From NCBI GenBank assembly GCA_025602915.1, contig JAHLJZ010000010.1, positions 124,001-188,000 on the forward strand: DNA of 64,000 nucleotides. Direction: 5' to 3'. A program made the translations under genes and the position numbers. Under the pieces are notes generated by a model. The model had not been told where the DNA came from, did no database searches, and was given only the letters and a program-made list of their open reading frames with translations. This stretch comes from Paraphysoderma sedebokerense (taxonomy: Eukaryota; Blastocladiomycota; Physodermatomycetes; Physodermatales; Physodermataceae). Shown here piece by piece: positions 7,319-41,656 of this stretch. Within the stretch, counting starts at the first letter, position 1; each line of letters starts with the position of its first letter.

Positions 7319-10141
7319 ATGCATCCTGTGGTGACATTGATTATTTTAGTTCTGGCTTTCTCTGAATTTCAAACGATCAATAGCCAAGAAGTCAGAACTC
7401 GTCGAGGTGGCGGGAACAAAGCAAGGTTACGATTTCCTGCAGGATCTTTGACTATAGCGGAATCAATCGCCAATTCCTCCTCACATTATCCGCCATCGTC
7501 AGCGAATCCCGCCAATGCCACTGGCCCTCGGATCCTCACATACACAATCGATCAATTCACTCTGAAAATCGACACTAATTATTCTCAATCGAAGATTGAA
7601 ATATATCATTCAGAGAGACTTTCCACATATTTTAAAACTATCCCGGGACAATCCTTTATCCTCGCAGCTGCCGGTCAAGACAGATTTAATGGTGAAAATG
7701 GAGTCTTTTATATCAATGACATTGACCGCGGATTTTGCGCTGATCAAAGCATTGACGAAATTAAGTTTGTTGAAAGCAACTCTCCTGCTAATGGATCAGC
7801 GAACGGTACTACTTCAACAGAATTGAGAATCAGCGGAAGTCTCAAAAATTCCAATGGCTGTAACCTGCAGTATAGTTTTATTTTGAAAGCCCTTTCCCGT
7901 AATCAGTTGTCATTTTCGATAGAACATAAGGCTGCGAATCCCCATCAACCGATAAAAATCAATGACACGGCAGAAGGGGTTGCTGAAGTGAAAAATTCAA
8001 CTGAAAATTCTGAAGGGTCAACAGTGTTGGGCAAGGATTATACCAAGACTTTTCTTAGATATCATGGGTCGTCAGATGACAGAATTTATGGCTTTGGTAT
8101 GCAATACTCACACATGAATATTCAAAAACAAAGTGTCCGAGTGTACACCAGGTAAATCGTATTTGAACACCTCATTCTGGCGAAAATATACTAAAAGGTT
8201 TTTTAGGGAGAACGGTTTAGCTCGCGCCATCCTCCAAAATAAACTGGTAAGAATGCAATTATAGAGTCCGATCGATATCTCCTCACATGTTCTCTAACAG
8301 CATGTATTTATTATTTATAGCTGTCTTCCTTATCTGCCATTTTTCGAAAGAGCAATCCCGATCTTACCACCAGCATCGCTCTTACACCATATTACTTCAC
8401 TTCATCTCTCTTCTCCATGTTCATTCAAAATACCGAATACAGTGTTTTTGATTTCCATTCAAAAGATGTCGTCAAAATTAAAGTCACTTCCAACAAGGTC
8501 GAAGGAAGATTCATTTACGCGAAAAGTTATTTGGATATGATTGAAGAGTTTACGACATACGCCGGAAGAATGAAGCCATTGCCGTCCTGGACACAACAAG
8601 GGGCTATTGCCGGAATTCAAGGCGGTAGTGAAAGAGTGAGAAGTCTGGTTAAGACTTGTAAGGATAATGATGTTGCATTAGCTGGAGTTTGGTATGTTTC
8701 TCCGTTGAAGCAAAATGATTTGAACAATCAGCTGACTAGCGTACGTTTTCCTTTTTCATTAGGTTGCAAGATTGGGTAGGCAACCGACCTCAAAAAATTG
8801 GATCGATCACTTATGAACGATTGTGGTGGAATTGGGAATCTGATCAAAAGTTATATCCGGATTGGACAAACCTCATAAAAGAATTAAAGGACACTGGTAT
8901 TCGAACTATGGCATACGTAAATTCCTTTCTCGCCGATCCTGCAACAAAACCATCTGGGTTTAAAAGAAACTTATTTAAAGAAGCTTTGGAAAAGGATTAC
9001 CTGGTAAAGGTCTCAGTAAAAGGCCAAAATAAGACTTACTTCAGCTCTTCTGGTCCTGGTATTCAAGCTGGCTTGGTTGATTTGTTCAAACCGGAGGCGT
9101 ACAATTGGCTAAAGAATGTGATTGTTGAGCAGATGGTCAAAACAGGTGTCGACGGTGGCATGTTCGATTTTGGCGAATATTTCCCGGCCGACAGTAAATT
9201 ACCAGCGGATCAACGCGGAAGACATAACAAATACGTAGAACTGTGGGCAAAATTGAGTTCTGAAATCGCAGCAGAATATCCCGATTTTGTCCCATTTCAT
9301 CGCAGCGGTTTTACTCAAAGTCCAAGCTACGCAAGATTATTTTGGTCTGGTGATCATGTATGGAAATCAATTTCGTGTAAACAATCTGGGCAGAAAATTA
9401 ACTCATTGCTTTACTAGTTCCCAAATTGGCATGATCTGAACGGAATCAAATCGGCTGTTATTACGCACCTTACTTCCGGTTTCTCTGGTTATTCCCTCAT
9501 ACATGGCGATGTCGGCGGCTACTTCAATGTCCAGTTTTCATCATACTCTCTCGGCACCCGTAGGACTGTAGATTTGCTGCTCCGTTGGATGGAACTTGGA
9601 GTATTCAGCCCGCTGTACAGGACCCATGAAGGATCTGTGCCCAAGTCAAATGCCCAATTTTATACAAACAACAGTATGTAGCTGAAGTTTTCTCTAAATT
9701 ACAACTTACTTTGAACTAACTCTCTATGCATTTGACACGATAGAAACTTTGGCACAGTTCAAGAGGATGTCGCATCTGTTTAAGGCTATGGCACCGTATC
9801 GCCTAGAACTCATGGAAGAGGCTCACCGCAAAGGATATCCATTGATACGAGCCATGTTCTTACAGTACCCGTCCGATTATCAGGCTCCACTTTTGGACGA
9901 ACAATTTATGTTTGGCTCTGATATGTTGGTTGCCCCTATTCTCCATCCTAACATGAAGAAAGTACAAGTTTATTTGCCAAAAGGAGAGTGGCAGCACTTA
10001 TGGACGGAGAAGGTATACAGTTTACGAAGCGGAGAGAAAGTGGAAATTGAAGCACCAATTGGAAAACCCGTCGTAATGCTGTCCTACCCAGTCAAGCGCG
10101 AGAGCTTAAAGGGTCTAATCGAGTATGCCAGAAAGATGTAA
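7319..10141 (+). CDS. Secreted GH31 alpha-sulfoquinovosidase-like enzyme (copy 1)
   Basis: Six exons join in phase: 7319-8151, 8207-8246, 8321-8691, 8763-9357, 9418-9673, 9744-10141 (830 aa). A signal peptide opens the protein (MHPVVTLIILVLAFSEF). GH31 features run in order: YGFGMQYSHMN substrate-loop region, LQDWVGNRPQKIG, ERLWWNW, MFDFGEYFP with nucleophile D550, WSGDH with acid/base D612, and HGDVGGYF. Compared with E. coli YihQ (remembered sequence), R434, W437 and Y648 fall on R301, W304 and Y508, the residues known to bind the sulfonate of sulfoquinovose, and the D612-Y648 spacing of 36 equals that of D472-Y508. Expected reaction: hydrolysis of alpha-sulfoquinovosides released from plant or algal sulfolipid. 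Ordinary alpha-glucosidase activity cannot be excluded without assay. Confidence 0.85.
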
Positions 10142-10623
10142 AATATGATAATTGCTGTAAACAACTTGTCTTTAGACTGGAACAATTTACTAATATAGAT
10201 ATTCAATAATCTCATCTGCTTGCTCCCGTGAAAACGATATTCTTTTGCGCATACGATCGCAAGCATATTTCATGCGTTTATCAAATTGTCAGCGGGGAGA
10301 CCGAATTTTCAATCACGTGTACCGCTGCTTTCAAATTTTGCACGGGGGGAGGGGGACTAATACATCATCGACGAACGGTTATTATTGCGGAAAAACGAAG
10401 ATAATTCATCAATTTTTTGCAGTTTAGCTCATCCGTTATCGTTAATATAGGGGCTGTTTCTGTCTCTCCTCATCGACCGCTGTTTCTGGTAAAGTTAAGC
10501 GTCGGCGGGTTACGACGTTCAGTCTTTTGAATCACAGCCACATCTCCGAGTCGGCACGAAATTTTATATCCAGAGTACGCCAAAGGCATTGTCATCCTTC
10601 TAAAATTTAAAATTATTATTCTG
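10142..10623. other. Intergenic, upstream region of C2H2 gene
   Basis: About 480 bp with no coding frame of note. It includes a G-run (GGGGGGAGGGGG near 10343) and AT-rich sequence just before the ATG. I see no recognisable operator. Confidence 0.35.
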
Positions 10624-12138
10624 ATGCCACGACAAAAAAAGAGAAAGTCAACAGCGAAAACGTCGGCGGCGACGGAACCATATCCGTCTCAGGATCTCGA
10701 CCAAAATGACACCCAAGACTCTTTACAGACGCAGTTGATGGCTGCAGCCCCCCAGTCAGTGCCGATATCGTATGTTTCCGATGAAGAAAAACAGCACCAA
10801 CAGGCAATAATGTATCATCAACCACCTCATCCGTATTATCACCCGAATGCCATACATTCGCAGCAACCAGCTATGGAAACGCCCGAAGGGTCGAATGAGA
10901 CTGGGGTACCATTTACCTGTACTATCTGTGATAAATCATTCTGGAGAAAATATGATTTCAAACGGCATGTCAGGATTCATACAAATGAGAGACCTTATGT
11001 TTGTCCGCGGTGCGAAAAAGGCTTTACACGAAAAGTGAGTTCCAAGGATATCGGATATTGCTTTTTTGCTGGATACTGACTTTAACAACTGTCTTAGGAT
11101 GCACTAAATCGACATTTGCAAGCGAATACTAAATGCGCTCCAATCGGTTCAAAGGGCGAGGCCGCAGAAGAAGAGATAAATGAAATTTTATCAGCTCCGA
11201 AGCGATCAAGAAAACCGAAAAATTCTAAATCATCAGATCCTTCGAAGGCAACTTCGGCGACATCATCCGTTTCTCCAAATCTAAGAGCTGCTATGCCAAC
11301 TTTATCTAACGTATCCCTCCATCCGTCGCCAAACCCTCATGAAATGATGGCTCGACATGCTGACGGCCGGACAGTTGTAACGATGCCACTCCCACAACAG
11401 TTTGCTGCCCAACCTCATGGATTCCATCCGACAGCGTATTTCCCCCCATATCAGCAATTTAGTTACGGTTATCCCCCAAATCCACATTTAAATCATCCAG
11501 GGTCGTCCCCACCGCAGCCACAATCACGCCAAATGCCGACCACGATTGCATTCCAACCATACCCACATCCTTCTTTCGCTCATCCACATTCAAACTCTAA
11601 CTCCTCCCCACATAACAACCCAAACCATCTAGTCGCACCTGCGAGCACTGCCCTACAAATGAATCAATCTGAAATTGACCCATCAAATCTCGTTAGAGAC
11701 AATGACAGCAATCAGGACTTATCACAATCTCAAGCGAATCTGTCTCAATTACTCCATGCTGTGCAATATTCGTCCGGAGGTAATCCTGCCATAAATTACA
11801 GCAGTTCGTCCGACTCCGAAGAGTACCAAAGGTTACCCAATTTGCAAAGCATTCCAGGCGTGAATTATCAAAATATCGGCTTATTGTCAACCTCCATTTC
11901 TGCGACGTCAACGGGTGATGCGAACGATGGTGCAGGTACAGAAGTAATGGAGAATCCAACTGACACTGGTGGAGGTGACACCGCGACCAATAGCGGAAAT
12001 CAATATGTGTTATTGAACAATTCGGAATCGCAGGAGTGGAACCAGAACTCGGAATTTGTAAATTTGGATGATAGTAATGATCCGTCCAAAAATGAGTTTA
12101 TCAACGATGACCGAAGTCAGGAGGATGATGAAAGCTGA
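10624..12138 (+). CDS. C2H2 zinc-finger transcription regulator
   Basis: Two exons, 10624-11034 and 11098-12138 (483 aa). The N-terminus is basic ([12 protein letters not shown], a likely nuclear signal). Two adjacent C2H2 fingers follow: [21 protein letters not shown] with linker TNERPYV, then [11 protein letters not shown] joined across the intron to [13 protein letters not shown], whose last ligand is Cys rather than His. The long tail is low-complexity (His/Pro/Asn/Ser-rich) and ends in a very acidic Asp/Glu/Ser segment that could activate transcription. Paired fingers of this kind are common in fungal stress and carbon regulators (Msn2/Mig1-like), but the target cannot be told. It lies next to GH31 copy 1; a regulatory link is only a guess. 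Confidence 0.85.
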
Positions 12139-12511
12139 CGGTTCCGTTAGTGGATTAGGCTGGGGTAAATCGATAAAGAAAGGCTGATATTGACACGGGA
12201 CGGGAAACTTGAATGTTCTATTCTCTTGCGAGAAATGTTGCAGCATAAGGAATATTACTGTGAAGAATGCAGGAAATTCATGCTTTGTTTGTACATTGAA
12301 GGCAAACTATGATAAGAGACAGCAATTTCGTGATGGTACCGTTTATTCTAGTTCTTATTTGAAAATCTTATCTGATACCGAAGAAAAATTATAATTTGTA
12401 ATATGCCGGAAACCTTGGTGGACAAAGAATTTTGTATAATTGGGGCGACACGTTTAAATGTCGCACGTGTAATAAAATTTTATACTTGCGATTTGATTAG
12501 GCATCTCTATT
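12139..12511. other. Convergent 3' flanks
   Basis: About 370 bp between two genes that end towards each other. AATAAAATTTT near 12470 on the + strand is a polyadenylation-like signal. No gene is seen. Confidence 0.35.
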
Positions 12512-14646
12512 TTACAATATGATATCTCCAACTTCAATTTTACAAACACTAAGACGCTGAATCTGCGTAGGACTGCTTGGCAAAGAGGGTCTTAATTTTA
12601 CCCACCGCACCAACTCAAGATCACTAGTGGAGCAGGTTACTTGAATTGTCATATAAAGATTCGTGGATCGAGTGACAATCGGCGTTGTACAAGAAACCTT
12701 TATAATTCAAGTTTTCACACGAAGTATGTTAATAACAGAAAAGCATTTAACGCAAGGCCTGGAAATGAAAAATAATATTGGCAACAACTGGAGTACTTAC
12801 CCAGTCGCTTGCCCCAAATGGATTTGATTGAGACGAAATTAAAATTCGAAGAGAAAAATATTCTCTATGATTGCGAGAGATCGCCGTACTGTGCTCCGCT
12901 AACATGGTAAATTCAACCTTAAGACTTGATGGAGACTGATTTACGGCTACTGGCTTGGTGAACTGTAACGCGACATAGTCATTTTCGTCTGGCGCTAAAG
13001 GTACACCAACAATATTAACTGTGGAACGAAAAAATCTATACCAGACTTATCAAACTAACCATTTCTAGAAACCCAACAACTTTCTTCTTCTCCGTCAACC
13101 GCATTCCAATATCCAGATTTTGTAAATTCTTCAATTCGAGGATACCCTTCGGCATACCGTCTTTCGTCGAGAGTTGGAATGTTCTTTATTGTAAATGGAG
13201 AGTACGTGACCGAGTCTGGCGAAGGAAAATTCGAGAGAGAACTGTAAAAGAGACACAGATCATTGTGACACGGAGAACTAAAGGGAGTATGAGAAAATTG
13301 ATGTATTATATACTAAATGTAAGGAGTAGAAGCATACCGGGCATGCAGCGATGAAGAAAATGGTATAGCTTCTGTGGAAAACATGGGGGATTGCTTGCTG
13401 GGTTGAGATAAGTGGGTGTGCATGATTGATGCGGCAGATAGCTGTTTTAGCGGAAGCAGATAATTAATATGCCATACAAGTAGCAATCGAAGGATTCAAC
13501 GGTTGATTGCATGAGAAGCGTACCATATATCGAAATACGATTTCCATCGAGTCGTTTCTATCACTCCAAGCATTGGGTTGAGGTAACGGCTTCAGCCTAC
13601 TCGTCAATTGAAATGGATATCGATTTGTGAATATTGAGAAGAAGATATCAATGTTAAGATATTTCTCTCGTGGGATCTCCTTCGATAATTTGCCCAAATG
13701 TTGAAGAAATGCCTGAACAAGTGTTTGTGAAATGAAGGAACCAGTTCCAATCCAGGTAAATCCAGTGTGGAGGTTTATGTCTGAATCAACAATAACGTTC
13801 CTGATCAATAAGATGCAAACATCAATGATAAGTAGGCTGTAGTTACGACACCTTTGTTCACGAACATCCACCTCTGATGTTCTACATGTATTTCAGGTAT
13901 CGTATTTGTCCAGATTCCGTCAATGGGTATATCTGTACGCGGATCCATGGGTTCGTTTTCCGCATCAATGTTTCCGTCCTGCAACCAATGCTCCGCCTCT
14001 GCTTCTTGTTTTCCGGTAAGAAAATTTAAATATAAACTTCGCATATACACGTTCAACCAATCATCGTCTTGGAAGTAGCAGTAGCGGTATTTCGCCAATG
14101 AACAGGCGAGGTATTTACCAAAATCGTGTAAGTTTACCAGCGAATTGTAGATATTAAGTGGGGTCACTGATGGAAAGTCCTAAAAAACGACAATAAATTG
14201 ATCTATGTCAGCCAGGAACTAGTACGCAGAATGATCGATGCGGACGTGAGCACAGGCAAAATTACCTTAGTAGACAATTCCATCATCTGATTATTATTCC
14301 ATATTATAATTTCTTTGATAAAAGTGTACCTGTTGAGGTGCAGTACAATTTTTCGGAGGTTATCTTTTCGTTTCCAGTTCAGTAGAACTGCAGTTACTGG
14401 TTCTAACGGTACCCCATAATCATTCTCGTGAATGGAACTATTCCGTTTGCTCAACTGAGGCGTTGGGGATAGTACTTTTAACATTTTCTGATCATTCCTT
14501 AAATCATTTGAAGGATACAATTGGTAGAAGGTGGCGAAGGTAATGAGAATCAGCAGGAGCGAGATGATTTTGCTTCTTCTTCGTAGCGATCTCGACAGCA
14601 ACACAATAAAATATGCAGCTGAGCAGCATGCAAATAAATACAGCAT
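12512..14646 (-). CDS. Type II membrane glycosyltransferase, GT64/exostosin-like
   Basis: Seven exons on the minus strand join in phase: 14266-14646, 13852-14179, 13524-13780, 13338-13441, 13060-13241, 12801-13018, 12512-12697 (551 aa). The N-terminus holds two hydrophobic stretches (MLYLFACCSAAYFIVLLS and IISLLLILITFATFY), giving a Golgi-type anchor. The catalytic part starts AVLLNWKRKDNLRKIVLHL and contains KEIIIWNN, a layout like the GT64 domain of EXT/EXTL proteins. The metal motif is CYFQDDDWL, followed by NLHTGFTWIGTGSF. A C-terminal region of about 200 residues, with FTMLAEHSTAISRNHREYF and DLELVRWVKLRPSLP, is beta-like and unassigned. Membrane-bound fungal proteins of this kind exist but their sugar and acceptor are not known to me. 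Confidence 0.75.
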
Positions 14647-14903
14647 GTTTTACTGGCAATTGAGTATGGGCATGAGTTCTTCAGCGGATATGGAATAATG
14701 AGAGAGATATGGAAAGATCGTGCGGCCTGGCAGAGACGGAATTGGCTCATGCTCGGTGCGTGTGTCTGTTCGGCCACCGAAATTACCAATTCCACACACC
14801 GCACTCCTCTGCCATAATCAGTTCCACAGATGTAACATGGGTATCTATATAGGAAATACAGCTTGTAGCATGGGCTCTTCATCCTCTAACTTTGTTTGAT
14901 TAG
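14647..14903. other. Divergent region holding the unresolved MED12 5' end
   Basis: The glycosyltransferase starts leftwards at 14646 and the first firm MED12 exon begins at 14904 with an acceptor (TTTGATTAG). A short first coding exon of MED12 must lie here and supply one base of a split codon; several ATGs exist but I could not choose among them. Confidence 0.4.
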
Positions 14904-22315: not shown

Positions 22316-22437
22316 ATAGTCAAACCCTTTTCATTCCAAAGCCGTGTTAATGACAGCAAAAAGAGTATGACAAATAATTGGCGCCAACTATATGACGCAT
22401 AATAAATTTATAACATTTACAACACCCACCCGCTATG

Positions 22438-27519: not shown

Positions 27520-28282
27520 ATCTAAGTATACTCTTTGGTTTATGAAGTGAAAGCAGATAAGCGAATTTTTTCCATGTTTCAAAGTGCTGCCAAGCTACGA
27601 TCAGCTGGCGCCAAATTGCTCAAAACTTGTTCATTCGCGGAATTAAAACATCTATTCTCCATTTATTTCAGCCTCCCACTATCGGTTTAGATAATTTTTA
27701 CAATTAAAAAAAAGATATCAAGTTGACCTTCAGGTCCACGTATGATGATAAAAACAAGCTAAGAATGTTTGGTTGATTGATCTCTACGAAAACAAGGAAA
27801 ATTTGAAATAAAGCAATTTTTAAGTTTTTGAGCGTCCTGAGAGATTAGCCCAAATAAGCACACAAAGTAATCAATTACAACATTTTCTGGTAGCCAGAGT
27901 TCAGTCCACGGGTTATTCCGTGATGCATTTTCGTAGGGGTTTGTAACTGAACATGGATTTTTGTATTCAATTTGTATCACACCATACAGCGATATTGTCC
28001 TCATATTGTGACAAATAATTCTCAATTTGCAAATTTTGACTTGGGTGCACCGTAAACTGAATGAAAATGAAAGGAAAACGAAAATTCCACATTACTTTCA
28101 TGAGGCCGACATCTCAGTAATATAAATCAAATTAGCACACAATGCTTTCAATTTATGCCAACCGATAAGGTGTATCCGTACATTGTTGTCGGTGGGTGCG
28201 TTGCAATCGCGTCAGCATAAACGTTGCGTGTCAATGGTTATATAAGAAGGGATCTTGGTGTCTACGAAACCAATATGACAAA
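27520..28282. other. Intergenic region upstream of the ART-like array
   Basis: About 760 bp, AT-rich, with only short frames that show no family features. It holds the promoters of cardiolipin synthase (left) and of the first ART-like gene (right). A TATATAAG box sits at 28239-28246, about 40 bp before the ATG. Confidence 0.45.
28239..28246 (+). promoter_or_regulatory. TATA box of ART-like gene 1
   Basis: TATATAAG lies about 37 bp upstream of the chosen start codon at 28283. It supports that start, because earlier in-frame ATGs at 28196 and 28233 would lie upstream of or next to the box. Confidence 0.5.
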
Positions 28283-29461
28283 ATGATGATACTTTCTCAT
28301 TGCTTGATTCTTCTATTGATCGTTGAATTTGGTGGTGCAGTGCTCTACAAGAATCTTGGTCCAAAACAGAAGGCACGCCGAAGAAATGCCATTTTGACCA
28401 GTCCAACTACATCTGGTCTTTTGACTCCGATGTCTCTTGACAGTAAGTATAGATTTTTTGTGCAATGGGTGATATTTTTGTCGAATATTTGTAGCATGTA
28501 ACAAAAGTCAAATGCTAACTATTCATATGACTTTTATGCTCTCTAGATCCTATAACACCGCCGAATTTTGGTCAAACATGCCCTGCTAACCGTCGCCGAC
28601 TTCTTTCAACCGAAGTCACAATGCAGGACTTGCCAAAAGAACTTCAGTTAGAGAATGAAATGTGTGTCACGCTTTTAGGATATCACGGTAGGCTCTGTAA
28701 TCAGTCAATATTGCCAGGAACGATCTAACCGCTCTACCGATGTAGGTACTTGTGGAGCAAAGAACGCGAAGTCCATAGAAACAGGAATCCGTCCTCAACC
28801 GCTTGAGGGACCCAACCACAACCCGCAATTAGGGCAGGGCTTCTACATTACACCAGGTAAAGCTAATCTTTCAATATAAAAAATTCACAAACGCATGAGA
28901 GCTAATTTAACTTGTCGCAACAGCTTTCGAGGACGCCCAAGGATGGGGAGAACGAGGTATTTACCTTCAACACCTAAGAGGCACATGTACAAATTTCTTA
29001 CGTATTAATCATATTATTTTAACTCATTCATAGCTTGTGGAGATAGAAAGTTACAGGAGAAAGCGTCTGTCTGTGCGATCTACATGGAAACCGGTGCATT
29101 CAACACTCTTCCCAAACTGTTTGTCCCTCGAGAAGTAGAACAACGACTGCCCACACCGCTTCGATTATGGGGCGATGTTAACAATATTGAAACTTGGAAA
29201 AACCATCACGGAATAACAGGAGATACCCTGTTATTCTCTTTCATTGATTTTAGCCATGAGAATCTCCCCGCCAGGGCTAGAATGGCCCTTCGCCAATGGC
29301 AAGTTGTGGTTCCGAATAATCAATTGGGTACATTGATTGCGAAGTGCTCAGATACGTTGGATACCGCGCCCGAGCAATTGTGGGATGAATTGATTCCTGC
29401 GGCATGGAATGTCAAAGGGAGATTTAGGAAGAAGGATGCATCAGACATACTCGCGAGATGA
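28283..29461 (+). CDS. Secreted ADP-ribosyltransferase-like protein, array copy 1
   Basis: Five exons join in phase: 28283-28442, 28547-28687, 28746-28856, 28924-28956, 29034-29461 (290 aa). A signal peptide is present (MMILSHCLILLLIVEFGGA). The core reads LLGYHGTCGAKNAKSIETGI, then LGQGFYITPAFEDAQGWGER. The order YHGT...SIE.GI...GFY(L/I)T...A..WG is what is seen in ADP-ribosyltransferase-fold families such as PARP-like DUF3990 proteins, with His and Tyr of the H-Y-x triad visible. A third acidic or polar triad residue cannot be fixed by eye (a candidate region is LRQWQVVVPN). The C-terminal half holds VCAIYM and FVPREVE blocks shared with the two copies downstream. The frame is whole. Function is unknown; a secreted effector, competition or self-wall role are all open. 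Confidence 0.7.
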
Positions 29462-30061
29462 TTTCCTTTTGCGAAACATGCAATTCCTCCGTCTAAATAC
29501 ATGATGGGTAAATGAATGTCATCAGATCACATGCTTTATAATTTTAGATTTATGGCTTTGTAGATAAATGTGGATATATACATATAAAATTCACTGTCCT
29601 TCAAATTTTTAGGGAAGGGTCATAGGGCCATCAGATGAGAAAGAATATAAGCACATTTTTTATGAGTTTACGTAGTAACACCTTGGAACATTACCCTGAT
29701 TTAGTCTCAGAAAGAAGCACATAATTTGGCTGCTTTGGCAACGGTTTATTATGGTCGATCGAAGGATCTTTAAAAGTGTGCATTACCGCCAATAGGTATT
29801 GAGCAAAACGGCAATTTATATCTCCACAATGATAAAAAAAAGTAATGCTATTCGTAGAAATTTTAGCCTTCCATTCGGAAATTTATCCGCGTGCAAAACG
29901 AGCTAGTAGCGCGATTAAACTAATTATGGCTATTGTTTTCGAAAATTGACTTGGTCGCTACACAATGCAGTATAATGGGAAATAATTACAGTCAGCCTGC
30001 TTTCCGCTGTCCAATTACATATAAAGAGACCATCACTCCGTTCTATGCTGTGAAAATCAGC
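29462..30061. other. Intergenic between array copies 1 and 2
   Basis: About 600 bp of AT-rich sequence without a supportable gene. The promoter of copy 2 ends it, with TATAAAG at 30020-30026, about 36 bp before its ATG. Confidence 0.45.
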
Positions 30062-31160
30062 ATGAAGGCACTTGCTGCTGCACATCTACTATTCTTACTT
30101 TTCCTTTCCACCACTTCAGCGAAACTGTATGACAGCCTCAGCCCGGCAGACAAGTCGCGAAGACTTGATGCCATTCGCAAGTACAGTCTTCCACGCCTTC
30201 CTACCCTGTCACTTAAAGGTATTGATGAGGCACAATAAAAAATACGCCAGAAAATACTGATCAAGTATAAATTTCGTTCATAGATTCCCCACCTCCTCCC
30301 CTACAATCACGGAATGGACAATGCTCATTTGACCAACGGCGGCGACTGTTGACTTCAGCCATACAAATGACGGAACTGCCTCCTGAGTTTCAACTGAGTA
30401 CTACTGAATGTTACATGTTCTTAGGTTATCATGGTAAGGCAGATCCCGTATTTTTGCTTAAAGTAGACATAGTTTGCTGATTATTCTTGGTTATGGTTAG
30501 GGACGTGTGGTACGAAGGCAGCAGCTTCCATTGAAGTCGGAATCCGCCCTCAACCTCGAACCGACCCAAATCATCGATCCCAACTCGGCGAGGGCTTCTA
30601 CTTGACACAAGCTTATGAAGACGCCAAAGAGTGGGGAGAAAGAGGTATGGACCTACCTGTCAACTCTTGATTTTTGTATTTCAAACTTATCTTGTTTATT
30701 AGCGTGCGAACTCGGTGGCAAGGCCAGCACTGAAACACCCTCCGTTTGTGCTATTTACATTAACGGAGCGACATGGATGTATAGCAAGAAATTATTCGTT
30801 CCTCGTAGAGCTAATTTCCAACAACCTCCAAAACTTGAAAATCTATGGTGGGATATGCCAAATATTGAAAAGTGGAAAAGACATCACGGAATACTTGACG
30901 GGCAGGATTCGATACTGTTTTCATTTATTGATTTCAATCACGCAGATTTTCCCGACGTTGCGCGTAAAGCCCTTCGTCAATGGCAAATGCTAATTCCCAA
31001 TGGAAACTTGATGGGAAACATAACAGCTAAATGTTCTACGGCCCCACTGAATCCGCCTGAGAATAATTGGGATGCATTGATTGACGGTGAATGGCAAGTC
31101 CAAGGACGGCGTCGTCAACACCGTAGACCCCAAACAGGATCTCCTGTTCATGATGAATAA
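30062..31160 (+). CDS. Secreted ADP-ribosyltransferase-like protein, array copy 2
   Basis: Four exons join in phase: 30062-30218, 30284-30433, 30501-30644, 30703-31160 (302 aa). The signal peptide is MKALAAAHLLFLLFLSTTSA. The core is MFLGYHGTCGTKAAASIEVG, then LGEGFYLTQAYEDAKEWGER, and the C-terminal half contains VCAIYINGATWMYSKKLFVP, LFSFIDFNH and LRQWQMLIPNGNLM. Each exon has exactly the same length as in copy 3 (157, 150, 144, 458 nt), so these two are the younger pair. Copy 1 has one extra intron, inside the segment GFYxT/AxEDA. The tail is basic (VQGRRRQHRRP). The frame is whole. Family and role as for copy 1. Confidence 0.7.
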
Positions 31161-31834
31161 TAGCCGCCCAAAGCATTTTGTAGGCGAAGAAATATGTATA
31201 GATGAATGTTCATGAGACTGTATAAAGATAAAAGACTACGCACATAAAAGGGAATCCGAAATCAAGTCCGCATAAAGACCTGGGATGTGCTGTCGGATTA
31301 TAATTTAATTATATGTAATCTATATTCATAGCATACATACCAATGACAAATGCCGCTAGATTAAGTACTATTCCAGCCGTATTTTTGCTACTTCCGCATC
31401 CCACAAGTCATGTAAGAGATAGCACTCGTTTCAGTCATTCTGTTCCGAGTAACCAATATCCTTCACACTAAGAATTGCGGAGAATTTGAGTTTCTAAATT
31501 CCGGTGCTATATGATATCTTTCTAAGCCTATCACTGACTTGCTCCGATTAATTATGGGCATTTTAGTATGAGATTTGTATGTGCGAGCCCGATAAGCATT
31601 TCGGCTTATGATACGTCCGCGATAGTAAGCCACTGTTCTTCGAGTCTTGAGATGCCTCGTATGCCTCTCATTGGACGCAATCACGTCCGATACATAATTT
31701 GGCTGTTGCGCTGCAAATATGACAAAGGCCCCATTAGCGAACTGCATAAAATTTTCTTTTATTTGCCCACATAAATCAAGGTGTTTGTCACTTTTTCAGC
31801 TCCGTAGCAATATTGAAAAAATACTTCAAAAGCC
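31161..31834. other. Intergenic between array copies 2 and 3
   Basis: About 670 bp; no supportable gene. It contains the first copy of a flank repeat (31609-31648) that recurs after array copy 3. Confidence 0.45.
31609..31648 (+). repeat. 3'-flank repeat, copy after ART-like gene 2
   Basis: TGATACGTCCGCGA, a short gap, then GTAAGCCAC, GTT and TTCGAGTCTT. The same string of blocks is found at 33069-33110, after ART-like gene 3, with only a few differences. It marks the downstream end of the duplicated unit. Confidence 0.7.
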
Positions 31835-32927
31835 ATGAAGAGATTAGCAATCCTTTATTTCTTGGTTTTACTTCTGAGTTGCACAGTTTCACCAAAACTA
31901 TACGACAGACTCGATCCGACACAAAAATCTCAGAGATATGATGCTATTCGAGGATACAGACTTCCAAAACCTCCGACTCTGTCGTTGGCAGGTATAAAAA
32001 TTTTATATTGCAAGATATTATCAAGATCTACAAGTTTTTAACTAAAATTTGGCCTAAGGTTCTCCTCCTCACCTACCGCAAGAAGATAATGGACAATGTT
32101 CGCTTGAACAGCGGCGGCGACTGTTAGGCGCGGCAGTACAATTGAGCGCTCTGCCCCCTGAATTTCAACTTCAGAGGGAGTCATGCCACATGTTCTTAGG
32201 TTACCATGGTAATTACGTGAATGCAGACCCTAGAGCGATGTAAGATATTTGTACTGAACCTGTTGAGTAGGGACGTGTGGTGCGAGAGCAGCAGCTTCGA
32301 TTGAACTTGGCATCCGCCCACAACCGCCCAGGGATTCGAATCATCGATCCCAACTTGGTGAAGGTTTTTACTTAACACAAGCATACGAGGATGCAGAAGG
32401 ATGGGGAAGAAGAGGTATACTTTATGCGTTCAGTTAATTCGTCGATTTCCAACTAATTTGTTGCTCTAGCTTGCGAGCTCGGTGGAACTGGGACCACTGA
32501 CGTGCCTGCCGTCTGTGCAATTTACATAGACGGAGCGGCATGGATGTACAGTCAGAAGCTTTTCGTTCCTCGTAGAGCTAATACCGGGCCATATTCCCAG
32601 GTAGAAGATTTGTGGTGGAATGGGTCTAAAATTGAAAGTTGGAAGCAGCATCATAGGGTAAACGGACAAGATACCATATTATTTTCATTCATCGACTTTG
32701 ATCACGAAGAATTACCTCCTGCCGCGCGCGAGGCCCTTCGTCAATGGCAAATGCTCATCCCCAACGGAAGCTTGATGGAAAAAATAGTTGCAAAATGTTC
32801 TACCTCCCCGCTTAATCCTCCCGAGAACGATTGTGATGCATTGATAGATGGGGAATGGGAGGTCCAAGGACGGCGTCGTCAACACCGCAGGCTTACAAGG
32901 GACTCACTAGTACATATTGAAAGATAG
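31835..32927 (+). CDS. Secreted ADP-ribosyltransferase-like protein, array copy 3
   Basis: Four exons join in phase: 31835-31991, 32059-32208, 32271-32414, 32470-32927 (302 aa). The signal peptide is MKRLAILYFLVLLLSCTVS. The core is MFLGYHGTCGARAAASIELG with LGEGFYLTQAYEDAEGWGRR, and the C-terminal half has VCAIYIDGAAWMYSQKLFVP and LRQWQMLIPNGSLM. It is the closest relative of copy 2, with identical exon lengths and the same basic tail (VQGRRRQHRR). The frame is whole. Changes between copies 2 and 3 lie mostly outside the YHGT and GFYLT blocks, which suggests purifying selection on the core. Confidence 0.7.
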
Positions 32928-32975
32928 CTAAGTAATTTGATGTATTACGATGTAAATTGCCCAGTATATATACAA
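32895..32975 (+). repeat. Array tail repeat, copy overlapping the end of ART-like gene 3
   Basis: Starts at ACAAGGGACTCA inside the last codons of array copy 3 and runs through ATTACGATGTAAATTGC to TATACAA. A diverged copy in the same orientation lies at 34814-34884, on the far side of the transposon. Confidence 0.65.
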
Positions 32976-33068
32976 GAATCAGATAAATGAAAATGCACAT
33001 AAATCGAAGTATCACAGTAGTATCACATAGCGGTGATGACAGACACCTCATTTTGTATGAATTTGTAT

Positions 33069-33110
33069 TGATACGTCCGCGACACCGTAAGCCACAGTTG
33101 TTCGAGTCTT
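33069..33110 (+). repeat. 3'-flank repeat, copy after ART-like gene 3
   Basis: Matches 31609-31648 (TGATACGTCCGCGA, GTAAGCCAC, TTCGAGTCTT) with a 4-base gap difference. It supports a duplication unit that includes gene plus downstream flank. Confidence 0.7.
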
Positions 33111-33225
33111 TAAAAAGGTATTTCGTTGGACACCCCGAACGGACAAGTAGGCACGCAAAAAATTCTCGTTTGGACATTGGCATGTCAATCTTCATAAAGC
33201 GTGCGGTTTTCTGGGGAATATCAAC

Positions 33226-34378
33226 ATGATCCTTGATGCGGCATCCGCATACATGCTTTTCTCAATTCTCTATAACGATGAAGAGACTTCCAGACAACAA
33301 CAACAACAACAAGATCTGGTTCGACGACGGAACCTCCAAGCTCTGACCCTTCTTAGAATCCGCAATACGATCCGCACTCGCAACTATCTCACAACTTCGG
33401 CTCTGCCGGATCCGAAAAATTCAGAATGGTACAATTTATATGAGAATGGGGAAGACGGGAATTTCATTAGTGTGACTGGTTTAAACAGAGAAGGATTCCA
33501 TTCGTTATTGAGGTTTTTTAAGCGAGACTATGTTATTCTCTCTGAAGGAAATCATAATGGAGGACGTCCTGCTAAACTCGAAAAACATATGGTTCTTGGG
33601 CTCGTCCTTCACTTCTACGCAACTACTGCCGATCTCAAATCGCTTTGTGTAATGTTTGGTGTACCCCCTTCTACTCTGTCACGCACCCTCACCAAAGCAG
33701 AAGTTGCTTTGAACCGATCGCTACGACGCATGCGAATGGCTTATTAAGTGGCCCACGTTTGAACAACAACGGGAATGGGCTCAACTGGTGGAAAGAAAGG
33801 AACCATTGATTACGCAGAAATGGGGGGTGATTGACGGCAAAAGTTACAAGGTCCAACGGCCAAGCAACAGCGAAAGGCAAACCGCATTAAACAATGGTTG
33901 GTTGGATACAGCCCTCGTCACCGGTGTGTTCTGCCTCGGTTGTGACGGCACTTTGGTCTGGGGGAAGCATAACTGTCCTTGGAGCTGGAAAGAGGATATT
34001 AGTTCGTTTGAGGAGAAGCTAATCGATTCTTCCTTGACTTTGCCGGGATATGGGGTAGTTGCAGACTCTGATTTTCCCTGCAGCGATCCCATGGTTGAGC
34101 AAATTGTGACCCCGCTCAAGGAGCATGAATTTACTGCTTTACCTGTTGAAGCTCGTCGTGGGGCGCGGTTAAGGCATAATGCTATTGTGTCTCTTCGTCA
34201 ATCAGTGGAGTGGGGAATGGATGCAGTGGACAAGGTGTTTAGAAGATTACAACAACCTTTACCTTACAATCCAGAAACAAGAGGGAGACGACTAGATAGT
34301 ATATATCGTTTGTACAATTTCCGAGTGCGAACTACAGGGATTTCTCAAATCAGAACTGTATTTTACGGAAATATGTAA
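33226..34378 (+). mobile_element. PIF/Harbinger-type DNA transposon, transposase remnant
   Basis: Two overlapping frames make up a DDE_Tnp_4-like transposase. The first (33226-33747) contains FISVTGLNREGFHSLLRFFK and a helix-turn-helix-like region (DLKSLCVMFGVPPSTLSRTL). The second, open from about 33700, contains WGVIDGKSYKVQRPSNSERQ, LVTGVFCLGCDG, YGVVADSDFPCSD and HNAIVSLRQSVEWG, giving candidate D, D and E catalytic residues. The frames meet near 33715-33740 with one apparent frameshift, so the gene is probably inactive. A CAA repeat (33298-33315) encodes six glutamines near the start. I could not find terminal inverted repeats or a 3-bp target duplication with certainty. Confidence 0.75.
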
Positions 34379-34413
34379 TCAAACTCTCTGTGAACGTTTT
34401 GACTAAGTCTCAT

Positions 34414-34680
34414 TCATTTTGCTGCTTTGACATATTCCTTCTTACCAAATATTGAACTAAGCATGAGGAGAAAACGTTTATGAGATTCCTCTCTTTCTTC
34501 TCTACGACGGTTTTCATCCTCCGCCTTTTCGTCTTGCGCCGTGATTTATCCTTTTCGCTTTCTCTTCTGGCCTGCGAATCTCGTCATCTTCACTTCGTCT
34601 GGTTCCATTTGGTTCTGCATCATCATCAACGCTATGAAATTCATTGACTTCGAGGATTTTTCTGCGAATGAAAGAGTGCT
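34414..34680 (-). pseudogene. Remnant of a Myb/SANT-like accessory gene of the transposon
   Basis: On the minus strand, convergent with the transposase, one frame reads FIRRKILEVNEF, DDDAEPNGTRRSEDDEIRRP and EEKAKR. A second frame continues with AQDEKAEDENRRREERE, then SHKRFLLMLSSIFGKKEY before a stop at 34414. Charged coil followed by a hydrophobic KRFLLMLS tail is typical of the second, DNA-binding protein of Harbinger elements. The N-terminal Myb part is not visible and the two pieces are in different frames, so it looks broken, unless an intron joins them. Confidence 0.4.
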
Positions 34681-34813
34681 CACTGGGTTAGCTGACCTAT
34701 CAATTGCTGCGTCCAAATTCACCGTTCCCTAGCCGTAGCAGAGAGAGTGCTAATGTCAGACTTGTTCCCATCATTGGAAGAGCTTCTTTGTTTACTTTTC
34801 AATACGGTAGGCC

Positions 34814-34884
34814 ACAAGGGACTCAATTGTACATATGGAATCTAAGTGTTTTATTACGATGTGAATTGCAAAGCACATATACAA
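34814..34884 (+). repeat. Diverged array tail repeat beyond the transposon
   Basis: ACAAGGGACTCA...GTACATAT...ATTACGATGTGAATTGC...TATACAA, in the same order and orientation as at 32895-32975. It reads as the last few codons and 3' flank of a further array copy whose body is gone. Confidence 0.6.
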
Positions 34885-35002
34885 CATAGACATGATTTGA
34901 AAGTATCACACGTATGAGTATGCTGGCGGATGAGTGGTTGACTGCAGCGTCCTTGCCGCCCAAAAAAGAAAGCGCCCATCTGTTCCAGCATCGATATTTG
35001 AA

Positions 35003-36587
35003 ATGCTCTTTCTTTCTCCTCTTTTCTTTCAGCTACTTCAATATGGCTGGATTCTATCCATTCTTCCACTCTACTTTGGCATTAGCGAAGAAGATGGACT
35101 ACGTCTGGGGCTCACATTCTCCGTTTTCTACTTTGTCAGAGAACTGATAGCGGCCTCCACTTCGAGGGGCGGCCTCAAACTCATAGTAAATTGACATTTG
35201 CGACTATCGTTGATTCAATATAACATTTCGACTGACTGATAATTTAGTCCATAAGCGTTCACCTTTTCACGATTCCGATTCTATTGCTGCCAATCGTCAT
35301 ACCGTTATCCGTGCAAAGATCCATCCCCTCGATCGCTCTATTCGGTTATATATATAAATCAGTTCTTCGACTGACGGCGCCGTTGTTGACAGTACTAGAA
35401 GGATTCGCGACCATTGTGGTCGTGAGATTTGTCGGCAAATACATCACCGAGAAGTTAGATGAAGAGGAAACCAACGATGGCGGACGAGCTTTTAAGGTGC
35501 GTTGTGGATCATTTGTATGGAACATGAGGTGATATATCTAACTTGTATATTGCTAGATCTTATTCCTATTATTCTCGATAATCTTGTACTGTGTCGACGT
35601 GTACATTTTGTATAACATCTACTCTTCTTCTAATCTGTCAACGATCACCGCATCACTATTGAGCTCCGTGATTACGACCATCCACTTTTCCGCCATCCTC
35701 ATTCGCCTTCGAAGCAATCTTGATTCGACAGTACCCCCCATAACAGACGATATTATACTGGTATGTCCATTGGTCTTTCGTGGAATTTCTATTTTCCTTC
35801 GGCAGCCTTAGGCTCGCAAAAAGGAGTCCGTGGACCATCAGCTTTCTTCTTTCCAACTTAACCTGACATCATGCGATCTTACATTTGCTTATCTCATCTC
35901 TAGTTTGCGTACCTCGTGATGAATGTTTTCTTAATGTCATATTCATGGCAAGCACAACCTAAAGTCGGTAGCTTTTCGGCTATGGAAGGCATTGCTGGGA
36001 ACTTGAAGAAGATGAGCACGTAAGTTGTCTTTTCTTCCCGGGCATCATAATACTTACTTAACTAAATGATTTGTCGGGTTCATACATTACGATTGCGATT
36101 CTATCTTTAAAGGCCGAGTTTAAATGATTTGTTCGACTTAAGTCAACTGGCCGCCACGTTATATCGCCTTCTAGCATATTGCATTCAATCTCGTCTACTC
36201 TTTGACGTTTCAATGATTATATCGTTACTATATCGAACTGTCATCTTTTCCTTAGCTTTACTCGTCATTAAAAGATTAAATGAAAGCGATGACGTTTACT
36301 ATGAACAAAGTGACCAGGTAATTTTTTGTTTGAAAGAACCTCAACGGAAAGACAGCTCATGTGACGTATTTTCGTATTATTCAATCATATCTCTCTTTAC
36401 TTAGACCCCTTTTTCTCTGAGTCTCTTGCAAATTTTCGTAAAGCCTGCTGTGATAGCTTTCTACACTCATTTTTTGCTCATTCATTTCAATTATATGGAT
36501 GATTATAGTGTAGCATGGAAGTGGATAAATATGTTCTCAGTCTTGGCTATGAATATTATTTATGGATTTGTGTCAGTAGAAGAGTAA
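35003..36587 (+). CDS. ICE2: ICE2-like ER membrane protein
   Basis: Six exons join in phase: 35003-35185, 35248-35496, 35557-35760, 35904-36019, 36113-36317, 36405-36587 (379 aa). The protein is almost wholly membrane segments, starting MLFLSPLFFQLLQYGWILSI, with LLTVLEGFATIVVVRFVGKY in exon 2, a block that matches the LLEGFC region of fungal ICE2. Exons 3-6 add further hydrophobic helices and FAYLVMNVFLMSYSW. In yeast ICE2 shapes cortical ER and links lipid droplets to ER; here it is some 110 residues shorter than the yeast protein. Assignment rests on overall pattern and the LEGF block, not on a strict motif. Confidence 0.7.
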
Positions 36588-36789
36588 TAAGCAACCAGCT
36601 ATCAAGTATAAAAATAAACCATATATAAGCTTGAATCGGCGTTAAACATTGTCTAAATGATGCTACGATGAGCTGGATATTGTATAATACATAGATTCTA
36701 AGTTTCTTCCATTTCTAAGTAGCACACCCATAACTCTATGGATTCCGAGTATTCTAATAATCTAACAACCTTCATGCATACATACACGC

Positions 36790-38483
36790 TTACTCCCTCA
36801 ACTCAGATGCTTCAACATTCATCCTGCTTTCTCTTTTCTTCACTGCTAATTCAAAATGAGTATGCAGAATCTGGTTATATTCTTCCGACTTTTGAACAAG
36901 CACTGCGTGTCCAACATCCTCAAATATGTAAAGTGGAGCGGCTAAGGCTTTGGCGATGCTTATACTATTTTTGTGGCTGATTAGCTATTAGTAAAATGAA
37001 AATAAAAAGAAGAGAATAAGAAAGGATCATTTTCAAGGTAAGTAAGGACGAACTCGGGTTTAAAGGGAAGTGAAAGAAAGGTCAAGCTCACGCACAAAGT
37101 CATCCGTTCCGGTGATAACTACAGCTGGAATACCACATGATTTGATAATTTTTAACTCTTTTTTTGATATATAATGGGTTATTACAGCGTGCAATTGTCC
37201 TTTAATGCCGTCAATGGATTGAAGAGGCGTAGACGAAAGATTTTGATAATGAAACTAAAAACAGCGAGAGCGTTGGAAGAGCAGAGCATCAATTAATTGG
37301 AAAATCAAGGAGGACGCAACGAGAGTATGTAAGCCCAGAAAGATTGAAGAAGTAAATACTGGTTAAAAATATATCGCAAAGTAATGGTGAATTGAAAAAC
37401 TATAAGTACCTCATACAAATACTCTTTCCAAGTTCGTACCCCGTCTGGACACTTCGATTTTAGAAATTTCTACAATTATAAAAAAGAAAATTAGAACTGA
37501 TACAGTGTTAGCACGGAAAGGAGTAGTAACATACCGGAGGATAGAGTATTCGTAGTATATTTCGAGTTTTGGCAGCGAGTACGTCTTTCTCCAGTAACAG
37601 ATTGATTACGCCTCGAAGACCAATAAATTGTCCGCGAATCTGTACCATTTGAATCCATATTAATGAGATGTTCGTTGCTCAATAATTTGGGGCAATGTGT
37701 ATTGAATTTACTCACCGGCACAACTCCAAGACCAGCTTGGGTTGATGTAAGTGTAAGGGACACGGTGGCCCATGGAAAAGCGAGTGCAAATTTCTGTGCA
37801 ATCATACCTCCTAGAACGCATAAAGTACGGTATAGAAGCATTAAATACATGTCTTTGATTTTTGTGTTAAGTTGGCAACTGAAGTACAAACCCATTGACA
37901 CTCCAACAATATGAGCGCTATTCCATCCCAAATGTTGCATTAGCTCGTAAGCGTCCATTGCCATTTCGGCGGTACTATATATTGTGTTCCACGATTGAGC
38001 ATCTCGGAATTGAAATCCATACACTCAATTCAAATGACAAGAAAGAGAACAGAACATACGTATAGCGACTGGGCGGACTTTCACTCTTACCGACACCTCT
38101 ATTGTCAAAGGTAACGGCTGTGAAATTTGGAAATTGGGAAAAATAATCGGTCTACAATTCGTGTATAAACATTTTATATGAGTTGAAAAGGGTCAAACAT
38201 GACAGCGGTTGCATAGGTGGGTTCATACAAGTTTTCTGCAACTTAAATGGCAAACTTCAAGGCTCGAAATAAACTGAGTAGATGAAGTACAAAGTCATAA
38301 ACCACTAACCTGTAGTTTCCAGCCATGGCCGGTTGCATTTAAACCCATAATAAATAGTATCCTATGCTTATTCTCTTCTGACTGAACGATTTCTTCATCG
38401 TCAACAGGATTCTGGCAATGATGAATTTCGTAGTAAATTTTCACAGGCCGTCCTTGCTTTTCACCGACAGTTGCATATGGCAT
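36790..38483 (-). CDS. Alpha/beta hydrolase
   Basis: Eight minus-strand exons join in phase: 38310-38483, 38060-38151, 37892-37974, 37716-37810, 37535-37639, 37410-37469, 37096-37254, 36790-36984 (320 aa). Features in order: ILFIMGLNATGHGWKLQ (oxyanion region), TFDNRGVGKSESPPSRYT, nucleophile elbow GVSMGG with the serine in SMG, VVITGTDDF with the acid, and DVGHAVLVQ with the catalytic His. No signal peptide is seen, so it is cytosolic or mitochondrial. Proteins of this type include epoxide hydrolases, esterases and lipases; the substrate cannot be told. It is convergent with ICE2. Confidence 0.85.
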
Positions 38484-38829
38484 CGTGCTATATTAATTAT
38501 TGAATGAGTGCGAGGAATCTTGACTAAAAGCACAGATAACCGAACTACCAAATAAAAGATGGAAACGGTTGAATTTTCTATTTTAAGCAGAGAGCGCCAA
38601 GCGGGCGTTGAATGTATCCACCATGTTGGCGCGAAAACCGAATTTCAGATTTTCAGTGTAACCAGAATTGATGTCCAGACAGATAATATAACAGCAAATT
38701 ATCATTGCGACAATTTGATATAAAACGTGCCAGCAGAACTGATGATCTAGCATTTTTGTGATTTATCTTTGATATGGCCATTCCTTTCATTGTTTAGTTA
38801 TCTAAAGTCGTCTATTAGTCTATTCTATA
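38484..38829. other. Upstream region of hydrolase, downstream of GH31 copy 2
   Basis: About 345 bp between two minus-strand genes. AT-rich; GATATAAAAC near 38728 lies on the + strand and is not obviously usable. No gene is seen. Confidence 0.35.
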
Positions 38830-41656
38830 TTACAGCGATTTCGCAAACTCAATCAACTTTCTCAAACTTGATTTCGTTACAGGATACCTCAACAACACAA
38901 TGGGTTCGCCTATTGGACTCTCGAGTTCAACTGTCTCGCCTTCGATCGATTGATGTACTATACCACTCCATAAATGTTGCCAATAACCCTTCGGTAGGTA
39001 CACTTTTACTTTTTTTGCAGCAGGATTCAGTGCCGGGGCGACCAATACGTCTGATCCAAACATAAATTGCTCTTTCAGTGCCGCCGTGTTCTCGTCATTT
39101 GGGAACTGCAGAAACATTGCGCGAATGAGCGGATACCCTTTCTGCGCCGCTTCTTGCATCAGTTCCCGTCGATAAGGCGCCATCGCCTTAAATAAAAGTG
39201 ACATCCGTTTAAACTGATTGATTGTTGCTAAGTCGAAAGAAACAAAAATGAAAGGTTAGCGGAAATTTCTGGCGTGGCCGCATTAAACCAGGTGATAAGT
39301 AACGGAATACCTTCAGTATTGTAAAATTGAGCATTCGACATGGGTATCGAGCCTTCGTGTGTTCTATACATTGCGCTAAATACACTGACTTCCATCCACC
39401 GAAGGAGCAGCTCAGCTGATCTTCGAGTACCCATAACGTATGATAAGAACTGGACATTAAAGTAACCACCCACATCAGAGTGTGTCAAGGAATATCCTGC
39501 CATTCCCGAAGTCAATTTAGAGATGACTGACGACTTTATCCCATTGAGATCATCCCAATCTGGAAACTGTAATGACAAAAAATCAGTGATAAGAAAGCAC
39601 ATTAGCACAGGATATAATAATGCAAAGTTTGGAACTCACATGATCCCCAGTCCAGAATAATTTGACGTATCCCGGGCTTCGTGTGAACCCACTTCGATGA
39701 AACGGTACGAAATCCTTGTATTGGGTGGCGATTTCAGAACTCAATTTTGCCCACAACTCCACATATTCATTATGTCTTCCTTTTTGATCTTTCGGTAAAC
39801 GAGTATCTGGCGGAAAATATTCCCCAAAATCAAACATGGCGCCATCCACCCCAGATTTTACCATCTGCTCAATAATGAGTTTTTTTAGCCATTGATAGGC
39901 TTCTGGATTAAACAAATCGACCAACCCAGCCTGTATACCGGGTCCAGAAGAACTGAAATAGGTTTTGAATTGACCATTTTGTACAATCTTGACAAGATAA
40001 TCATTCGCTCGAGCTTCCTCAAATAAATTTCGACTGAATCCGGATGGTTTCGTAGACGGATCGGCAAGAAAGGAATTCACATATGCGAGTGTCCTAACCT
40101 TCTTCTTTTTTAGCTCTTGAACAAGATCCGACCAATCAGGATAGAGTTTTCTATCCGACTCCCAGTTCCACCATAACCGCTCATAGATAACGGACCCTAT
40201 TTGTTGGGGACGATTTCCAACCCAGTCTTGCAGCCTTAGCATTTCTGAAGTCAGCACTAGAATAATCTAGTCGGAGAAGATATCTGTACATACCAAACGC
40301 CTGCCAAAGGGATTCCCTTCTCTTCACATAAATTCACTAGTTCTCTAGTTCTCTCACTTCCACCCTGTATACCTGCAATCGCGCCCTGTTGTGTCCAATC
40401 AGGTAAGGGCTTCATTCGCCCGGTATAGCTAGTATATTCTTCAATCACACCTAAGTAATCTTTGGCGTAAATGAACCGTCCTTCGACGCGGTTGGAAACA
40501 ACCTTTATTTTTACAGTATCTTCGCCATGAAAATCAAACACACTGTACTCATTATTCTTTAAGAACATTGAGAACAGAGAAGAGGTAAAGTAGAACGGAG
40601 CCAGGGCGATACTGGTGGTAAGATCAGGATTGCTTTTACGAAGAATAGCGGACATTGATGATAACTGTCAAGCATTTGAAATCTTGTTAGAATTAGGGAG
40701 TACGATTGTAATCCAAGTAACAGTATATTACCATTTTATTCTGCAGAATTGCTCGTCCTAGTCCGTTTTCTCTTTGTAGAGTGCATGGAATCAGTATTCA
40801 GAAAGAACATTAAAAATTTAAAAAATGCTTACCGAGTGTACACTCTGATACTTTCACCTTGAAGATTCAAATGTGTGTATTGCATTCCAAACCCATGAAT
40901 TCGATCACTTGAAGCACCATAGTACGTCAAGAAAGTCTTCGTATACTCTCGATTAGAATTCCACTTCGGTTGCGAGTTTCTGCCTTGACCAGTATCAGCC
41001 CTGGAGTCATCAGTCATCGAAGTCTCAGTGTTACTAGGGCTATGCTCTACGGAAAATTCTAATTGATTCTTAGAGACTGCTTTCAGCACGAAGCTGTATT
41101 TTAAGTCACATCCCAGATCATTTGATAGTTTCCCCGTCACTTCGAGTTGAGATCCCCTAGCTACACTACGAATATTTTCAATCGTCTGATTTCCACAAAA
41201 TCCTAAGTCGAAATCATCAATGAAGTATAAACCGTCGTCACCATTGAATACATCGTTGCCGTATGCTGCGAGAATGAAGGATTGTCCAGGGATCGTCCTC
41301 CAGTATGTTTCGTCGGGTTGATCGGAATGCGTAAGTTCGAAATATGGTTTCTTTTGATCGTTCGTGTCCACTTTGAGCACGAAGTTTCCTATTTTGTACT
41401 CTTTCCTCTGCTCTGAGGTTGAAGCGGATGCCGATGAGGAGGATGAAGCAGGAGAAGCTGAAGGCGCGCTTGAAAATGATATTGATCCAGACGGTATTTT
41501 CAAAATTGCTTCGTTGGTTTTACCATTTTTACCCACAATAATGTCTGCTAGTACACTTTCGTCTTTAACACAGCTGTTTATGATCAGCGTAATGTAAAGG
41601 AACAAAGACCAAGACCATACTGATTTGGTCGTCATAAAATAGTGGACACAATTCAT
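38830..41656 (-). CDS. Secreted GH31 alpha-sulfoquinovosidase-like enzyme (copy 2)
   Basis: Six minus-strand exons: 40833-41656, 40732-40771, 40294-40664, 39640-40234, 39311-39566, 38830-39227 (827 aa). Exons 2-6 have exactly the lengths of copy 1 (40, 371, 595, 256, 398 nt). An N-terminal hydrophobic segment (VWSWSLFLYITLIINSC) acts as signal peptide or anchor. Motifs are LQDWVGNRPQQIG, ERLWWNW (R431, W434), MFDFGEYFP (nucleophile D547), WTGDH (acid/base D609) and HSDVGGYF (Y645), so the sulfonate-reading trio of YihQ is also kept here. Copies 1 and 2 look about three-quarters identical in the catalytic part. The serine/alanine-rich stretch after the signal (SSAPSASPASSSSSASAS) differs from copy 1. 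Confidence 0.85.

Follow-up and report, generated by a model that had tools for sequence, protein, structure and literature searches.

A fungal branch of putative sulfoquinovosidases includes two GH31 genes of the algal parasite Paraphysoderma sedebokerense

Does a fungus that lives on green algae possess a sulfoquinovosidase of its own? The question is raised by two glycoside hydrolase family 31 (GH31) genes, copies A and B, in a 64,000-nucleotide stretch of Paraphysoderma sedebokerense DNA (assembly GCA_025602915.1, contig JAHLJZ010000010.1, positions 124,001 to 188,000; here called the window), whose products an initial annotation had read as secreted enzymes carrying the residues that recognize the sulfonate of sulfoquinovose. 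This sugar is made at a scale of ten billion tons a year (PMC10755693); according to one review, pathways for its breakdown are known only from bacteria (PMC12890257), and according to another, degradation has been detected in plants and algae, where the responsible eukaryotic enzymes are unknown (PMC9594981). For the NAD-dependent GH188 family, members are described from plants and from a red alga, in a paper that contains no word with the stem 'fung' (PMC10755693); GH31 proteins of zoosporic fungi are listed as alpha-glucosidases (PMC6690862). P. sedebokerense belongs to the blastocladialean fungi and parasitizes green microalgae, Haematococcus among them (PMC11797010). No report of an assayed fungal sulfoquinovosidase was among the papers listed in searches of the open-licence literature of PubMed Central (PMC). 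As set out below, active-site residues and predicted fold make it rather probable that A and B represent a fungal branch of sulfoquinovosidases.

Both genes could be modelled over exactly the intervals first proposed. Copy A (7319 to 10141, plus strand) encodes 830 amino acids in six exons (7319-8151, 8207-8246, 8321-8691, 8763-9357, 9418-9673 and 9744-10141) and starts with a signal-peptide-like stretch, and copy B (41656 to 38830, minus strand) encodes 827 amino acids, likewise in six exons (41656-40833, 40771-40732, 40664-40294, 40234-39640, 39566-39311 and 39227-38830). Each spliced model is open from an ATG start to a terminal stop, with GT-AG introns of 55 to 83 bases; exons 2 to 6 have the same lengths in the two copies, which stand in opposite orientation with 28.7 kb between them. 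Over 762 columns the two proteins share 66% identity and, because the proportion of differing synonymous sites (pS) is saturated at 0.837 and that of nonsynonymous sites (pN) is 0.234, the duplication is old and purifying selection has maintained both copies. Copy A matches a database protein labelled Paraphysoderma sedebokerense (P0001) at 100% over 830 amino acids; with copy B as query no identical entry was among the matches listed, the top match being the A protein at 63%. Copy B may be absent from, or mis-modelled in, the public annotation.

The residues of the active site were compared with those of Escherichia coli YihQ (reference sequence from NC_000913.3), in which R301, W304 and Y508 bind the sulfonate of sulfoquinovose; sulfoquinovosidases typically have, in addition, either Q/Q or K/E next to the bound sugar (QQRWY or KERWY). 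In the alignment, R301 corresponds to R434 of copy A and R431 of copy B, W304 to W437 and W434, and Y508, within the motif DVGGY, to Y648 and Y645, while the nucleophile D405 falls on D550 and D547 and the acid D472 on D612 and D609, with a distance of 36 from acid to Tyr in A and B alike. The Gln pair is present as well, Q262 of YihQ aligning with Q391 and Q388 and Q288 with Q417 and Q414. Alignment and exon coordinates together locate these residues in the three central exons: in copy A (plus strand), Q391 lies in exon 3 (8321 to 8691) within GIQGG, Q417, R434, W437, D550 and D612 in exon 4 (8763 to 9357) and Y648 in exon 5 (9418 to 9673); in copy B (minus strand), Q388 lies in exon 3 (40294 to 40664), Q414, R431, W434, D547 and D609 in exon 4 (39640 to 40234) and Y645, again in DVGGY, in exon 5 (39311 to 39566). 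The claim that both copies keep Arg, Trp, Tyr, the two catalytic Asp residues and their spacing is thus borne out.

The comparison across GH31 subfamilies including YihQ, which the initial annotation had proposed, likewise places both proteins on the side of YihQ rather than with alpha-glucosidases or alpha-xylosidases. In blastp searches YihQ is matched with E values of 9e-103 (A) and 7e-109 (B), and the scores against YihQ (321 to 337 bits) stand far above those against the E. coli alpha-xylosidase YicI (131 to 132 bits), a GH31 enzyme which has the barrel and the catalytic Asp in common with the pair, but which reads S, K, a gap, C and F where the pair has Q, Q, R, W and Y and so keeps none of the five. 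The best-matching entries of the Protein Data Bank (PDB), as well as the nearest folds in a global superposition of the predicted model (made from an alignment of 54 of the 120 listed proteins described below), are solved sulfoquinovosidases, and alpha-glucosidases rank far below them in both sequence and fold comparison. From YihQ itself (GH31; PDB 5aed, 5aeg, 5oht), to which they are 31 to 32% identical, the window pair differs by about 70 extra N-terminal residues with a signal-like start, by introns, by its position in a separate clade and by the lack of sulfoglycolysis neighbours seen around it within the window, and from the Agrobacterium sulfoquinovosidase (PDB 5ohs, 7ofx) by its Q/Q pair, where relatives of that enzyme have K/E.

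Is this combination of residues peculiar to P. sedebokerense? Homology searches found 218 proteins, the best 120 of which were taken further, and in a tree of 123 rows (a quick one, as were all trees here) both window copies fall within a clade of 76 rows (SH-aLRT, the Shimodaira-Hasegawa-like approximate likelihood ratio test, 91) whose organism-named members are all fungi, namely chytrids, Mucorales and ascomycetes, the remaining rows being unnamed. All 76 rows keep Arg, Trp, Tyr and the first Gln, and 75 also keep the second Gln, in a clade in which 59 of the 660 well-filled columns do not vary; among the 45 rows outside it, the R301 place holds Arg in 26 and Gln in 19. Such strict retention of the Arg argues for a use of this residue. 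Because the fungal clade (chytrids, Mucorales, Penicillium, Aspergillus, Fulvia), with which the window pair is monophyletic, has the same residue set as that pair, the enzyme is, as judged from sequence, widespread among fungi and no rarity of the P. sedebokerense genome. The expectation that it would be unusual is therefore not supported, and a bacterial transfer into P. sedebokerense alone, which had been considered, is ruled out by the span of the clade. The name sulfoquinovosidase is already given to some of the fungal records (Penicillium rolfsii, Fulvia fulva and Pseudocercospora fuligena); such names prove little, since a walnut protein (P0022) with Gln at the Arg place is also named sulfoquinovosidase-like. 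Many named relatives carry the source label alpha-glucosidase. No protein named Allomyces or Catenaria was among the 120 matches listed. Two chytrid proteins were conspicuous in other respects: P0004 of Chytridiales sp. JEL 0842, with 1282 residues, contains a second Pfam domain, PF00282, either by fusion or by a gene-model error, and P0105 of Quaeritorhiza haematococci, a name that points to Haematococcus, is divergent and sits on a long branch in the fungal clade.

When bacterial and archaeal genomes were scanned, with an alignment of 18 of the 120 listed proteins, 574 stretches that encode a relative came to light, and in the best 80 of these 574 the five positions read QQRWY in 24, have Gln for Arg in 53, keep Arg with other changes in two and are misframed in one. 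Neighbourhoods were probed with eight E. coli proteins (YihN, OmpL, YihO, YihP, YihR, YihS, YihT and YihU, YihV not being among them), and genes like yihO or yihP (E < 1e-100) stand at eight of the 24 QQRWY loci and at none of the 53 Gln loci, counts that are limited by the short flanks of many loci; all eight belong to the 17 loci inside the YihQ clade. The split between Arg and Gln loci is blurred by a gene with weak likeness to YihU (E 3e-20 to 2e-25, in a broad family) at four Gln loci, all of Pseudomonadaceae, and by weak YihO/YihP-like matches (E near 1e-12) at the Gln locus L084. A relative with K/E on a Shinella plasmid falls in the YihQ clade, and the annotation of its cluster reads like a sulfo-Entner-Doudoroff set. 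Gln-type relatives, which occur in bacteria including cyanobacteria (L045, L074), in Haloferax and in walnut, share the GH31 branch of the window pair and retain the Trp in all 19 Gln rows and the catalytic Asp residues in nearly all, but have Gln where the window pair has the sulfonate-place Arg.

Where the enzymes would act was judged from their N-termini with a Kyte-Doolittle scan over ten residues, which is crude and no trained signal-peptide predictor. By this measure the hydrophobic peak is clear in copy A (3.41) and weaker in copy B (2.49), and potential N-glycosylation sites number nine in A and one in B. Named chytrid and Mucorales relatives, with peaks of 0.66 to 2.0, have no clear signal-like start, unlike copy A; ascomycete starts often look signal-like by eye, with scan values that overlap the others (about 0.8 to 2.9). 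Glycosylation sites amount to 10 to 17 in each of ten ascomycete proteins, one to seven in five chytrid proteins and three to six in five Mucorales proteins. Copy A thus probably enters the secretory path. For copy B the case is weaker, and its single glycosylation site speaks against secretion, so that the description of both enzymes as secreted is likely for A and doubtful for B.

Taken together, A and B would be retaining GH31 alpha-glycosidases that cleave alpha-sulfoquinovosides, the likeliest substrate being sulfoquinovosylglycerol and perhaps the sulfolipid itself. In the numbering of copy A, D550 would attack the anomeric carbon and D612 would protonate the leaving glycerol, with a pocket of R434, W437 and Y648 reading the C6 sulfonate as in YihQ. 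At least copy A, in the secretory path, would act on the chloroplast sulfolipid of the digested algal host. The extracellular release of sulfoquinovose from algal sulfolipid, as first suggested, is consistent with the residues and with a life on green algae; because none of the breakdown genes probed in the genome was found, the idea that the fungus itself uses the freed sugar is conjectural.

Several observations weigh against this assignment. The NCBIfam model NF007746, which is linked to YihQ and whose own label is alpha-glucosidase, has a cut-off of 553 bits that copy B exceeds (558.3) and copy A misses by 3 bits (550.1), and the E. coli control genome matched the model yet stayed below the cut-off, which is unexplained; no third YihQ-like gene was found in the P. 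sedebokerense genome with this same model, its control matched but under cut-off. The best trees separate the fungal clade from the one that unites YihQ with the operon-linked bacterial enzymes, and therefore descent alone does not give the substrate. Among bacterial QQRWY loci outside the YihQ clade, none of seven has a yih-like gene (E 1e-8) within the flanking DNA covered, one of them, L095, being only 4.9 kb long, and no recognizable sulfoquinovose operon was seen in family scans at L082, L098, L065 and L071 (8, 5, 3 and 2 genes, respectively). Nor did the genome of P. sedebokerense (27.29 Mb in 195 contigs, an assembly that may be incomplete) return the breakdown genes that the initial annotation had proposed to look for, among the few that were probed, namely YihS, YihT, PF07221, PF00296 and TauD, an absence of little weight. 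YihS and YihT gave no match, as probes without a positive control; PF07221 gave none, with the E. coli control also silent; PF00296, the luciferase-type monooxygenase family, gave none; and the two matches of TauD, the probe for a sulfonate dioxygenase, were set aside as carnitine-type, since their N-termini resemble those of carnitine-pathway dioxygenases.

The separation of the two clades is itself not firm. The first loci tree comprised 24 of the 120 proteins together with 76 of the 80 loci (left out were the misframed L068, the short L044 and L063 and L038 with a broken frame), and later trees of 78 rows lacked a further 28 Gln-type rows and P0105 and included L101 to L103; the groups for the topology tests were defined after the first tree had been inspected. 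When the 15 fungal and 21 YihQ-clade rows were forced together without the Gln-type row L091, which adjoins the YihQ clade in the tree, the topology was rejected by the approximately unbiased test (p-AU 3.8e-5); with L091 included, the cost was 9.8 log units and the topology was not rejected (p-AU 0.27). The statement that a union of the fungal clade with that of YihQ is impossible was accordingly dropped, as it came largely from the exclusion of L091, and the two may be sisters; the sulfoquinovosidase reading became slightly more probable with this correction. The Arg/Gln place requires at least seven changes on the 78-row tree, and the fungal enzymes may have kept their Arg from an ancestor or acquired it anew.

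The pocket of Arg, Trp and Tyr could serve another sugar with an acidic group at C6, for example the alpha-glucuronide of glucuronosyl diacylglycerol, and the proteins would then not mainly be sulfoquinovosidases. This lipid is known from plants and from certain algae and fungi, and such a substrate would suit the position of the fungal clade apart from the YihQ clade, the retention of the enzyme by many ascomycetes too and the lack of a sulfoquinovose-breakdown gene among those probed. Yet it is the full QQRWY set that is kept and not the Arg alone, the nearest folds are sulfoquinovosidases, and we know of no GH31 glucuronidase of such a kind, so that this explanation appears improbable. We give as little credence to an alpha-glucosidase of the YihQ-like branch that acts on neutral alpha-glucosides and keeps the Arg for stability or another contact: the alpha-glucosidase labels on many named relatives and the large group of relatives without Arg would fit it, but the Arg never varies in the 76 rows of the clade, outside which Gln is frequent at this place, and in sequence and fold alike the alpha-glucosidases reach much lower scores.

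A third possibility concerns physiology and is a version of the preferred sulfoquinovosidase reading rather than a departure from it. The enzyme may work as a sulfoquinovosidase whose sugar the fungus does not eat, removal of the headgroup giving access to glycerol or diacylglycerol, with the sulfoquinovose left to nearby bacteria. None of the probed downstream genes was found in the genome, which has an ATP sulfurylase and a gene of the PAPS (3'-phosphoadenosine 5'-phosphosulfate) reductase family, and algal bacteria are reported to be necessary for P. sedebokerense infection (PMC11797010). The absence of a few known genes, on the other hand, leaves room for an unknown fungal pathway, and nothing ties the role of these bacteria to sulfoquinovose, no word in the text of that paper beginning with 'sulf'; we regard this version as possible, though somewhat unlikely.

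The surroundings of the two genes do not resemble a sulfoquinovose cluster, as far as frames of more than 121 residues in the window show, ten of which were scanned against Pfam and the others inspected by eye. Just downstream of copy B and on the same strand lies a gene of several exons for an alpha/beta-hydrolase (36790-38483, minus), of which the frame 37494-38024 alone was scanned (Pfam E = 0.002, below the Pfam cut-off); a sulfolipase is one conceivable role. A double-psi beta-barrel (DPBB_1) protein at 469-1290 (plus) has a Pro/Ser-rich tail, a hydrophobic end and an expansin-like look and is possibly a cell-wall protein. Three frames at 29009-32924 (plus), similar by eye, the middle one of which (30606-31157) matches DUF5910, are perhaps a small local family expansion, and transposase-like frames follow at 33151-34375 (plus), with a match to DDE_Tnp_4 at 33713-34375. 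Besides this DDE transposase piece and the DPBB protein, the window holds a kinase, a CDP-alcohol transferase piece and WD40 and Fringe-like genes.

For the gap left by the eukaryotic enzymes of sulfoquinovose release, these proteins provide a candidate found throughout the fungi, with a complete putative sulfonate-reading set and present in a parasite of algae for which axenic culture is possible, so that the question comes down to a simple assay, and the split between Arg-type and Gln-type relatives offers a test of the role of the Arg. Tentatively, fungi may own an ancient sulfoquinovosidase branch, which in P. sedebokerense would be duplicated and secretory and would strip the headgroup from host sulfolipid outside the fungus's own cytosol; since no probed breakdown gene was found, the freed sulfoquinovose may pass into an unknown fungal pathway or to the bacteria needed for infection.

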